Below are positions 34,484 to 37,539 of a stretch of DNA of 37,539 bases, piece after piece. Source of the stretch: Ignavibacteria bacterium (lineage in GTDB: Bacteria > Bacteroidota > Ignavibacteria > UBA10030 > F1-140-MAGs086); the NCBI GenBank assembly GCA_016873775.1, contig VGWC01000018.1, positions 1 to 37,539 on the forward strand. Direction: 5' to 3'. How positions within the stretch are numbered: position 1 is the first letter of the stretch; each line of letters opens with the position of its first letter. The translations under genes were made by a program, and so were the position numbers. The notes below the pieces were generated by a model that saw nothing but the letters and a program-made list of their open reading frames with translations, had not been told where the DNA came from and ran no database searches.

Positions 34484-35944
34484 ATGCTCGAAAAAATTAA
34501 ACAACTCGAACTCATCTCGCGAAAACATCTTGAACCAACCTCGCAACAACGCGATGAAATGACGAAGAAAATTCTTTCGTACTCGGAAAATTTTCTCGAC
34601 AACATTTACGAACTTCCCGCGTACGTGATGGATGAGAAAAAAGGAATTGACATTTACAAGACACCTATTTCTGAAAACGGAATTTCGCTCGACGCAACGC
34701 TTGATGTTCTCAAAACCAATGTTGACACGCCCGGATTGAATCCTGCAAGCGGCGGACATCTCGGCTATATTCCCGGCGGTGGAATTTATTATTCCGCGCT
34801 TGGTGATTTTCTCGCCGATGTTACGAATCGTTATGCAGGAATTTTTTTTGGTTCTCCCGGTGCAGTGCGTTTGGAAAATTTACTTATTGATTGGATGGCA
34901 GAAGTTGTCGGATATCCAAAATCCACTGCGGGAAATTTAACATCAGGTGGAAGCATTGCAAATCTCATCGGCATTGTTACCGCGCGCGATGCGATGAATG
35001 TGAAATCGAAAGATGTAGAAAAATCCGTTATCTATCTTTCCGAACAAGTTCATCATTCTGTTGATAAAGCGATTCGCATTGCGGGATTGAATGAATGTGT
35101 GTGGCGTTACGTTCCTCTCGATGAACAATATCGGATGAAAAGCGATGAACTCGAAAAGCAAATTCTTGAAGACAAAAAAAACGGATTGAATCCATTTCTC
35201 GTTATCGCTTCTGCCGGAACAACAAACACGGGAACAGTTGACCCGTTGAAAATAATCGGCGACATCGCAGGCAAATATAAGTTGTGGTACCATATTGATG
35301 CGGCGTACGGTGGATTTTTTATTTTATGTGACGAAGGGAAAAAAGTTTTGCACGGAATGGAAATGTCTGATTCGCTTTCGATTGACCCGCACAAAGGTTT
35401 GTTTCTTCCGTACGGATTGGGAACAATTCTCGTGAAAGATAGAACGAAAATATTTGAATCGCATCACTATCTTCCGCCGTATTTGCAAGACACATTGAAA
35501 GCAAACGACGAACTTTCTCCCGCAGATTTATCGCCGGAACTTACCAAACATTTCCGCGGATTGCGTTTGTGGTTGCCGCTGAAATTTGTTGGCGTTGCTC
35601 CGTTTCGCGCGGCGATTGAAGAAAAACTTTTGCTTGCGCGGTACTTTTGGGAAACAATTCAAACGTTCGACGGATTTGAAGTGGGACCGTATCCCGATTT
35701 ATCGGTCGTGATGTATCGCTATGTTCCGAAACGCGGCGATGCGAATGAATTCAACAAACGCCTTGTCCACGAAGTGCAAAAAGATGGAAGAGTTTTTATT
35801 TCTTCGACAATGATTGACGGAAAATTTGTTTTACGCGTTGCAATTTTGTGTTTCCGTACACATTTGCAAACAATTGATTTTGCATTGAAGATTTTAAAAG
35901 AGAAAGCGAAAGAGATTGAGAAAGAGTTTGAAATAAAAAAGTAA
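34484..35944 (+). CDS. PLP-dependent group II decarboxylase (aromatic amino acid/glutamate type)
   Basis: This 486-residue enzyme of the group II PLP decarboxylase family removes CO2 from an amino acid. The cofactor lysine is expected at K304 in SIDPHKGLFLPYG; the aspartate that contacts the pyridine ring is in HIDAAYGGF, and the histidine that stacks on it in EQVHHSVDKA. The N-terminal region NPASGGHLGYIPGGG and GNLTSGGSIANL match the family, in particular aromatic-L-amino-acid decarboxylase-like proteins. The substrate could be tyrosine, tryptophan, aspartate or another amino acid; sequence alone does not settle it. It appears to be a single gene, between two repeat elements, with no transporter nearby. 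Confidence 0.9.
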   Translation: MLEKIKQLELISRKHLEPTSQQRDEMTKKILSYSENFLDNIYELPAYVMDEKKGIDIYKTPISENGISLDATLDVLKTNVDTPGLNPASGGHLGYIPGGGIYYSALGDFLADVTNRYAGIFFGSPGAVRLENLLIDWMAEVVGYPKSTAGNLTSGGSIANLIGIVTARDAMNVKSKDVEKSVIYLSEQVHHSVDKAIRIAGLNECVWRYVPLDEQYRMKSDELEKQILEDKKNGLNPFLVIASAGTTNTGTVDPLKIIGDIAGKYKLWYHIDAAYGGFFILCDEGKKVLHGMEMSDSLSIDPHKGLFLPYGLGTILVKDRTKIFESHHYLPPYLQDTLKANDELSPADLSPELTKHFRGLRLWLPLKFVGVAPFRAAIEEKLLLARYFWETIQTFDGFEVGPYPDLSVVMYRYVPKRGDANEFNKRLVHEVQKDGRVFISSTMIDGKFVLRVAILCFRTHLQTIDFALKILKEKAKEIEKEFEIKK

Positions 35945-36009
35945 CTCACAAATTTATTTGTGGGACTGGAAAGAATCATTATGTTTTACGAAACCGTTTC
36001 AACGGTTTC
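35945..36009. repeat. Left REP-like hairpin pair (A and B)
   Basis: Hairpin A at 35945-35964 has a perfect 7-bp core CACAAAT-TT-ATTTGTG. Hairpin B at 35990-36009 is GAAACCGTT-TC-AACGGTTTC, a perfect 9-bp stem with a 2-base loop (8 bp with a 4-base loop). Confidence 0.75.
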
Positions 36010-36028
36010 ACAATCTGAGAAAAAAACA

Positions 36029-36475
36029 ATGCCACATTCATTCACTAAACTTTGGGTTCATTGTGTCTTTTCGACGAAAGATAGAGAACCGCTCATTGAA
36101 GAATCGTTTGCAGAACAATTATTCGAGCATATAAAAGAGAATTTGGTTTCTGATGGCTGTATTGTTCGCTGTATCAATGGCGTTCAAGACCACGTTCACA
36201 TTTTGTTTTTACAGAATGCGAAGAAAAGTATTTCAGAACTTGTAAAAAATCTCAAAGGAGAAAGTTCACATTGGGTAAATCAAAATAAATTTCTGAACAA
36301 AAAATTCGCTTGGCAAATTGGTTATGGTGCGTTTTCGATTAGTGAGTCAATGATTGAACAAGTAGAAAAATATATTCACAAGCAAAAAGAACATCACCGA
36401 AAGAAAACTTTTGCCGAAGAGTATGAAGGATTTTTGCAGCGTTATGGTTTTGAAGCCAAAAATGTTGAACAATAA
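36029..36475 (+). CDS. Y1 (HUH) transposase, IS200-like/RAYT
   Basis: 148 residues from ATG 36029 (MPHSFTKLWVHCVFSTK), the usual beginning of this transposase family; the frame stays open further upstream but runs through hairpin B. The HUH motif is HVH at 55-57 (QDHVHILF) and the likely nucleophile is Y115 (VEKYIHK), exactly the same positions as in the 690-1133 protein. The EHHRK..FAEEYEGFL tail is shared too. The sequences otherwise differ clearly and the flanking repeats are unrelated, so these are two families, not copies of one element. It cuts single-stranded DNA at hairpin ends through a 5'-phosphotyrosine. It seems intact. Confidence 0.88.
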   Translation: MPHSFTKLWVHCVFSTKDREPLIEESFAEQLFEHIKENLVSDGCIVRCINGVQDHVHILFLQNAKKSISELVKNLKGESSHWVNQNKFLNKKFAWQIGYGAFSISESMIEQVEKYIHKQKEHHRKKTFAEEYEGFLQRYGFEAKNVEQ

Positions 36476-36481
36476 ACAAGC

Positions 36482-36547
36482 GGAAAAATCGTTGAAACGA
36501 TTTTTCCTTGTAATATTTTTCTCTCCTCCCACAATTGAAATTGTGGG
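36482..36547. repeat. Right REP-like hairpin pair (B' and A')
   Basis: B' at 36482-36507 is GGAAAAATCGTT-GA-AACGATTTTTCC, a perfect 12-bp stem. A' at 36528-36547 is CCCACAATT-GA-AATTGTGGG, a perfect 9-bp stem. B' may also terminate transcription of the transposase gene. Confidence 0.8.
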
Positions 36548-36577
36548 TTATACGTTCACAAAAACAAATTTAATTCT

Positions 36578-37539
36578 ATGAACATTCTCGTACTTAACTG
36601 CGGCTCATCGTCTGTAAAATTTCAAATCATTGAAACGGATTTAGACTTGATTGATAAAAATTCCGACAAGCGTTTAGCAGGCGGAGTAATAGAACGCATC
36701 GGAAGTCAATCGCTCGTTACTTTTCAAGCGGAAGGAAAGCAAAAAGTAAAACAAGCAACACCGTTACGCGACCATCGTGCGGCAATTGATTTTATTCTGC
36801 GCTGGATAATTTCTCCTGAGTCAAAAATCGCAAACATCAATTCGCTCGCTGATATTCACGCCGTTGGTCATCGCGTTGTGCATGGTGCGGAAAAATTTAC
36901 CAAATCCGTTCTCATAGACGAGAGCGTCATTGAAGGAATTGAAGATTGCATCGAACTTGCGCCGTTGCATAATCCCGCAAACGTAAAAGGAATTCGTGTC
37001 GCGCGTGAACTTCTCGGAGCAGGAATTCCTCAAGTCGCTGTGTTCGATACGGCGTTCCATTCCACGATGCCGGAAACAAGTTATCTCTACGCAATTCCGT
37101 ATCAACTCTATCGCCGTTACAAAATTCGCCGCTACGGATTTCACGGAACGTCGCATCGGTATGTTGCATATCGCTATCGTCAATTGCTGAACATCAAGCG
37201 AGAGGAAACAAATATCATCACGATTCATCTCGGCAACGGATGTTCTGCTTGCGCAATTAAAAATGGAAACTCTGTTGATACATCAATGGGAATGACGCCG
37301 CTTGAAGGACTTGTAATGGGAACGCGAAGCGGCGATATAGACCCTTCAATTACGTATTTCATTCATCACAAAGAAGGATTATCGTTCGATGAGTTGGGCG
37401 TGATGTTCAACAAACAAAGCGGATTGCTCGGCGTTTCCGGTTTGACGAATGATATGCGTGAACTTATTGATGAAGAAACAGAACATCAGGATAGACGCGC
37501 GCGGCTTGCAATTGATATGTTTTGTTTGCGCGTGAAAAA
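36578..37539 (+). CDS. ackA: Acetate kinase (runs off right edge)
   Basis: The first 320 codons of a gene that continues past the window; the family is about 400 residues. It interconverts acetate plus ATP and acetyl phosphate plus ADP in the cytoplasm, giving ATP by substrate-level phosphorylation when run towards acetate. Clear family motifs: NCGSSSVKFQ at the start, GHRVVHGAEKF, VFDTAFHSTMP, YGFHGTSHRYV, IHLGNGCSACAIKNG, DTSMGMTPLEGLVMGTRSGDIDP and GVSGLTNDMREL. These include the expected catalytic arginine and histidine regions. No Shine-Dalgarno is obvious, but MNILVLNCGSSS is the standard N-terminus. Phosphotransacetylase is not in the window. With acyl-CoA dehydrogenase and enoyl-CoA hydratase present, acetate may be made or used alongside acyl-CoA oxidation. 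Confidence 0.95.
   Translation, partial: MNILVLNCGSSSVKFQIIETDLDLIDKNSDKRLAGGVIERIGSQSLVTFQAEGKQKVKQATPLRDHRAAIDFILRWIISPESKIANINSLADIHAVGHRVVHGAEKFTKSVLIDESVIEGIEDCIELAPLHNPANVKGIRVARELLGAGIPQVAVFDTAFHSTMPETSYLYAIPYQLYRRYKIRRYGFHGTSHRYVAYRYRQLLNIKREETNIITIHLGNGCSACAIKNGNSVDTSMGMTPLEGLVMGTRSGDIDPSITYFIHHKEGLSFDELGVMFNKQSGLLGVSGLTNDMRELIDEETEHQDRRARLAIDMFCLRVK

Follow-up and report, generated by a model that had tools for sequence, protein, structure and literature searches.

Introduction

The IS200/IS605 elements IS608 and ISDra2 carry one hairpin at each end, with left and right ends that differ, and behave as insertion sequences. In the class 2 REPtrons, REPs and REPINs of Escherichia coli, Pseudomonas, Stenotrophomonas and Marinomonas, hairpins are mirrored around the gene for a Y1 enzyme (TnpAREP/RAYT, with a Y---NP motif), inverted units without a gene are dispersed, and the hairpins have a 5' GT[AG]G foot. 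The REP of Marinomonas selects T, T and A at set positions of its 4-nt loop (PMC8266576), which by analogy may serve as a precedent for a code residing in the loop. The TnpAY1 enzymes of subclass 1.2 are defined by the motifs DH[IV]H, WQ and Y---Q--HH and a length of about 148 amino acids, together with cluster membership and a C-terminal HMM of their own (Quentin et al., 2018, Table 1; PMC6006769), and are described as near kin of the IS200 transposases without insertion-sequence properties or REPs; the table there gives “no” for REP and the text states that the properties of insertion sequences are not shared. From Caldithrix abyssi, 38 copies of aAACCGTTgaAACGGTTt (counted as a looser core pattern) have been published, directional by their central dinucleotide and strand-biased, with no transposase linked to them in that publication (PMC5317091).

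Here we describe a Y1 transposase gene and its four hairpins in the window, by which we mean the whole 37,539-nt stretch of an Ignavibacteria bacterium genome that was analysed. The enzyme has the motifs, the 148 amino acids, the low copy number and the Bacteroidetes-rich distribution of subclass 1.2, whereas ordered hairpins, listed as absent for that subclass, accompany most members of its clade that were examined. It resembles the class 2 systems in the hairpins mirrored around a Y1 gene and in the dispersed inverted units without a gene, but the enzyme is of the IS200 class rather than of the Y---NP type, the GT[AG]G foot is lacking, and an end combines two hairpins whose stems differ. IS608 and ISDra2 share with it the enzyme class and the distinction between left and right ends, but have one hairpin per end where this element has two. 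We consider it probable (roughly 0.8) that the locus is a REPtron-like module for single-stranded DNA transposition, in which a Y1 endonuclease lies between end modules that mirror one another and consist of an A and a B hairpin each.

A Y1 transposase gene framed by four hairpins

An initial annotation of the window had placed four hairpins around the transposase gene in an A-B...B'-A' symmetry with inverted loop cores; all four were found exactly at the positions it gave, A with one G-T pair, and the symmetry was borne out (Table 1).

Table 1. Features of the four-hairpin element (positions in the window).
Feature	Position	Strand	Loop	Sequence	Remarks
Outer left hairpin A	35945-35964	(-)	TTTA on +, TAAA on -	CTCACAAATTTATTTGTGGG	one G-T pair
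Inner left hairpin B	35990-36009	(-)	TTCA on +, TGAA on -	GAAACCGTTTCAACGGTTTC	19 nt 5' of start codon
Y1 (HUH) transposase gene	36029-36475	(+)			148 aa
Inner right hairpin B'	36482-36507	(+)	TGAA	GGAAAAATCGTTGAAACGATTTTTCC	6 nt 3' of stop codon; stem holds five T
Outer right hairpin A'	36528-36547	(+)	TGAA	CCCACAATTGAAATTGTGGG	

These four are the sole palindromes in the 37.5-kb window with a stem of at least 7 and a TRAA, TTYA or TTAA core, while a sample of 160 kb from the same genome (eight 20-kb stretches), in which TRAA and TTYA cores were counted, holds one such palindrome. The 603-bp region has five hairpins of any core against a mean of 0.27 and a maximum of 3 in 2000 shuffles, the fifth having a TTTT core and lying inside the transposase gene. 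Folded as single-stranded DNA and compared with dinucleotide shuffles, the flanks gave z values of -3.6 (1 of 200 shuffles as good) and -7.0 (0 of 200). The four-hairpin arrangement is real and not a product of chance.

A genome-wide search for the hairpins alone and for their orientation, as the initial annotation had proposed, was borne out in part: relatives contain ordered pairs without a gene (see below), whereas in the window's own genome both palindromic matches to A belong to the element itself, one further match to the pattern not being palindromic, and the four other palindromic matches resembling B are all inside open frames and for that reason probably chance. This distribution speaks against mobility in this genome, which seems to hold a single copy of the element, in intact form. 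Its flanking genes presumably encode a decarboxylase and an acetate kinase; in an empty-site comparison of 20 loci, the acetate kinase query matched beside the neighbour gene at the window's own locus and at none of the 19 others. That chance palindromes in AT-rich DNA, such as these B-like ones in coding genes, should also account for the four hairpins of the element is refuted by the shuffle counts above and by the polarity, spacing and stem-class counts below, and we give this explanation practically no weight.

The transposase belongs to PF01797 (93.5 bits) and matches the NCBIfam family NF033573 (IS200/IS605 transposase) with 67.7 bits, above the cut-off of 55, whereas its score against NF047646 (REP-associated transposase), 25.6 bits, is far below the cut-off of 80. 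A ten-sequence profile matched eight distinct solved sequences, all named transposases and ISHp608 among them; most of the eight we take to be of the ISDra2 or IS608 type. Residues H55, H57, W95, Y115, Q119, H122 and H123 occupy invariant columns in the alignment of relatives. With its DHVH, WQ and YIHKQKEHH motifs and 148 amino acids, the protein has the sequence features of subclass 1.2, and low copy number with divergent copies is likewise found, since the genome has four Y1 genes of which the other three are 35-36% identical to this one. The near-identical multicopy element that characterizes IS200/IS605 subclass 1.1, whose members often have tnpB in microsynteny, does not occur in this genome, and the marks of class 2 TnpAREP/RAYT systems are absent as well, the protein reading YIHKQ in place of Y---NP and the A feet being GTAA and ATAA in place of GT[AG]G. 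The motifs thus fit a putative class 1 (IS200-type) Y1 endonuclease of subclass 1.2. Taken strictly, the published feature of having no REP and no terminal hairpins does not hold for the window element; we read that statement, which is descriptive (“generally”), as needing correction for the window's clade and not as expelling the protein from subclass 1.2.

The window contains a second Y1 gene (690-1133), which the initial annotation had called unrelated. This turned out to be wrong, as the second protein is also PF01797 and 36% identical to the first, from which it is separated by its placement in a different clade of the protein tree. The catalytic residues H55, H57 and Y115 that had been noted in both proteins are indeed present, according to the alignment for 36029-36475 and to a hand count on the translation for 690-1133, and the repeat codes do differ, the ends of the second gene consisting of CCTTA-type repeats that do not fold. 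These are nested, inverted AACCTTA-type repeats without a hairpin at 634-683 and 1131-1179, with about 36 nt between outer and inner copies; similar AACCTTA repeats were seen in three relatives (L090, L091 and L094).

Other contigs of the window's genome (G000) carry further repeats. On contig C105, a block of four hairpins in the order > > < < is present in two direct copies, one on either side of another Y1 gene (L002, about 1486-1905). Near the end of contig C96 (L160, positions 34 and 136), there is an inverted pair of hairpins of the GGC type defined below, although all four Y1 genes of this genome fall outside that type. A different type of repeat, TAGGGGCAATTCATGAATTGCCCCTA, is located at the end of contig C15 (L045, 1-26).

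Ordered hairpins around related Y1 genes

Among 60 genomes, the window's own included, 41 hold a Y1 match, giving 102 matched Y1 genes, of which 86 were parsed and 16 short or fragmentary ones left out. TRAA/TTYA cores are present in 142 of 181 hairpins near Y1 genes (52.7 kb), compared with 21 of 55 hairpins more than 400 nt away at the same loci (123 kb); shuffling gave 0-2 such hairpins each time. Orientation follows the side of the gene. For the 86 genes, the nearest hairpin within 130 nt upstream is TTYA in 33 cases and TRAA in 5 (none in 48), and downstream it is TRAA in 25 and TTYA in 4 (none in 57). A second set, comprising the best 80 loci of a scan of named genomes and therefore not a random sample, was reduced to 73 by dropping 7 duplicates; here the upstream hairpin is TTYA at 49 loci and TRAA at 5 (none at 19), and the downstream one TRAA at 45 and TTYA at 7 (none at 21). 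Bacteroidota, Ignavibacteriota, Calditrichota, Verrucomicrobiota, Acidobacteriota and Planctomycetota are included among these best named loci.

The hairpins are distributed according to the protein tree. Most examined members of the window's clade (clade H) carry them in order: TRAA/TTYA hairpins are found in 32 of 40 rows, 8 being without, where two rows outside the tree, L006 and L101, were assigned by hand and the L006 gene has an internal stop. They also occur in 9 of 10 outgroup rows, and the 36 rows of clade N are mostly subclass 1.2-like by motif, yet just 2 have hairpins. As a separate observation, one relative (L018, G056:C202) has a tandem Y1 pair with long TTAA-centred hairpins, with arms of 15-16 bp.

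Hairpins so close to a gene could instead be RNA or DNA elements that control it, such as terminators, a start-site hairpin or autoregulatory operators, and would then not be transposition ends. B ends 19 nt ahead of the start codon, the B' stem contains five T, and the stop codon of several relatives is overlapped by B', as might be expected of control elements; against this, the loops show mirror polarity, the outer A hairpins lie away from the gene, ordered units are dispersed without any gene, and an Rfam search of 35500-37000 gave no match. We therefore regard gene control as a highly improbable main function of the hairpins, for which a secondary regulatory role is conceivable.

Two hairpins per end and two classes of stem

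Among relatives, the compared sequences establish that a typical end consists of two hairpins of one polarity, an outer A and an inner B, mirrored about the gene. In 109 elements (the 73 loci kept from the best named ones, plus 36 clade H rows from the 60 genomes), A is present on at least one side in 85, of which 61 also have B, 22 of them on both sides. With A chosen as the longest stem up to 8, and the outermost on ties, 91 hairpins of the same polarity were found on its gene side at a distance of 20-79 nt, and 83 of these fall within 32-47 nt, against a single hairpin of opposite polarity, at 64-67 nt; on the distal side there are 11 of the same and 17 of the opposite polarity, and the rule for choosing A partly builds in this difference between inside and outside, but neither polarity nor spacing. 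Within an element, the A stems of the two sides share an identity of 0.726, against 0.444 (sd 0.02) when reshuffled (58 elements; as in the preceding counts, best named loci are included). The full code is kept in three Melioribacteraceae relatives among the best named loci, with proteins 55-58% identical. Polarity appears to be carried by the 4-nt loop, TTYA on one strand and TRAA on the other, together with a weak 5' foot. A general terminal inverted repeat outside A was rejected, as 11 of 58 elements score at least 10, compared with 21 of 174 reshuffled pairs.

Two classes of B stem can be told apart, CCG (the window type) and GGC. On a protein tree of the quick kind, stem class changes once over 72 labelled rows (14 CCG, 58 GGC; shuffled mean 13), with labels defined after viewing the stems, from all mirrored stems including A, and with 35 of 107 rows unlabelled. 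Using B hairpins alone again resulted in one change over 55 rows (11 CCG, 44 GGC), where 200 shuffles had a mean of 10.1 and a lowest value of 8. At the level of the compared sequences, B stem type thus co-segregates with protein clade, in one event; being a single event, the split cannot by itself show that the enzyme reads the stem.

At positions 98, 100 and 102 of the enzyme, the two classes have no residue in common, and at 97 and 61 almost none; the same is true of position 3, at the ragged N-terminus. In E. coli TnpAREP, a region neighbouring the residues equivalent to 97-102 contacts the foot (PMC6006769), if the window-type residues are matched to it, as we infer, through the W motif. 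The CCG-type state at 98-102, G-[YF]-G-A-F, is also the commonest state in clade N, which is without hairpins, and the putative enzyme of Caldithrix, placed with the CCG type by the tree, reads E at 98 and T at 100 by eye. Both observations weaken the case that residues 97-102 read the B stem, an idea that may serve as a lead only. As the CCG-type state is common to most of clade N, the change lies in the GGC clade and amounts to one event. The A foot of this clade leans to ATTG/ATAG, with T (83%) at -3, T (69%) or A at -2 and G (49%) or A (34%) at -1.

Units without a gene and dispersed copies

The GGC-type hairpin pattern CCNCGANCTRAAGNTCGNGG was found in 21 of the 60 genomes, its reversed control giving one match in all of them together. 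Genome G019 has 36 matches (reversed control 0); counted by hand, 28 of them make up 14 (-)(+) pairs with a spacing of 112-121 nt, another 2 flank the transposase and 6 are single; in G039, with 26 matches, a hand count gave six (-)(+) pairs at 107-108 nt and one (+)(-) pair. We inspected 20 such units (13 of the 14 pairs from G019, 6 from G039 and 1 from G024), and 18 have the full <A<B B>A> order when inner stems of 3 bp are allowed. The 13 units of G019 are 0.49-0.93 identical to each other (median 0.64). Several G019 units have an outer inverted repeat of their own. Inverted doublets dispersed without a gene, as in REPINs, are therefore seen in G019, G039 and G024; the hairpins of the window element are not so dispersed in their own genome.

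Among CCG-type relatives, G059 (two), G009 and G040 contain B>A<B triplets centred on a symmetric TTAA, and two more triplets adjoin a transposase gene, while G001 and G024 have solo B>A> modules, spaced by about 42 nt. The B pattern AAACYGWTRAAWCRGTTT gave 52 matches in 16 of 60 genomes, against 3 in the reversed control. Counting also the hairpins that flank Y1 genes themselves, it occurs in 9 of the 10 genomes that have a CCG-type gene, compared with 7 of 50 without one (G048 and G056 not counted as CCG). Of 14 further genomes, all 8 that hold window-clade or CCG-type loci have it, as do 2 of the 6 others, and one of these 2, G060, holds a 57% identical relative. A strict link between hairpins and enzyme was rejected, since no Y1 match accompanies the 34 GGC-type hairpins of G014, which form an orphan population of repeats, and G039 has its 26 GGC-type hairpins alongside one distant Y1 only.

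These units bear on the possibility that the locus is an ordinary IS200-type insertion sequence, its hairpins being the left and right subterminal hairpins with no REP-like biology. The protein carries the NCBIfam name of an IS200/IS605 transposase and its solved relatives are transposases, and the outer stems of the gene-less units differ consistently, ACC versus AGC throughout, so that their ends can be told apart like LE and RE. Two hairpins per end in place of one, the lack of near-identical copies (the other Y1 genes of the genome being just 35-36% identical) and the many short gene-less units in relatives argue against it, and we regard an ordinary insertion sequence as unlikely. The gene-less copies and the paired-hairpin layout rather suggest a mobile repeat family, for a group of enzymes reported to be without one.

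The repeat of Caldithrix abyssi

The published sequence aAACCGTTgaAACGGTTt is, letter for letter, the core of B on the minus strand (35991-36008), and the two repeats have in common a polarity set by the central dinucleotide, while those of C. abyssi occur as single hairpins (PMC5317091). The 18-nt pattern was found in 7 of 40 genomes from the phylum of a Calditrichia bacterium. One of these (G074, a single contig of 4,978,541 bp), which by inference is C. abyssi, has 30 exact matches against 0 in the control, and 25 of the 30 fit one strand switch, the best among the points tried. An A hairpin at 38-47 nt from the B hairpins of this genome was seen at 0 of 19 loci, the B hairpins being solitary. 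The genome has three Y1 matches, the third of which (L378) groups with the CCG-type proteins (100/99) and sits between two B-type hairpins, AAACCGTT and AACTGTT. At this locus (G074:C1:4861087-4863494), the protein appears by eye to have F in place of the catalytic tyrosine. Identity with the B hairpin is a possible explanation for this orphan repeat.

Discussion

The comparison with relatives establishes, as far as sequences can, the anatomy of the system, its mirror polarity and spacing, the A stems shared between left and right, and the existence of units without a gene. For a REPtron-like module of this kind, the mechanism would follow the biochemistry of IS200/IS605 and TnpAREP enzymes, the source by analogy for binding, cleavage by Y115 and action in trans. 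The folded hairpins would be bound by the protein through loop, stem and foot on single-stranded, probably lagging-strand, DNA; Y115 would cleave next to the hairpins; the unit between two ends would be excised and then rejoined; and the protein would act in trans on the gene-less units. Cleavage and mobility are thereby both predicted.

A broader scenario, to which we give somewhat less than an even chance, is that one large clade of subclass 1.2 Y1 enzymes (in Bacteroidota, Ignavibacteriota, Calditrichota, Verrucomicrobiota, Acidobacteriota and others) runs a REP system of its own, with a two-hairpin end code, loop polarity and four-hairpin gene-less units. The change at residues 97-102 in the GGC clade would have accompanied a switch in the inner hairpin recognized by the enzyme, and the 18-nt repeat of C. 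abyssi would be the B hairpin of this system, in single copies left after its enzyme lost the catalytic tyrosine.

We found no description of a REP-like hairpin system of this kind in the open-access literature. If our reading is correct, REP-like repeats would not be limited to the class 2 RAYTs and class 3, and would extend to enzymes of the IS200 class. For subclass 1.2, whose DNA substrate was open, the hairpins offer a type of stem matched to each enzyme clade and a concrete substrate that can be tested.
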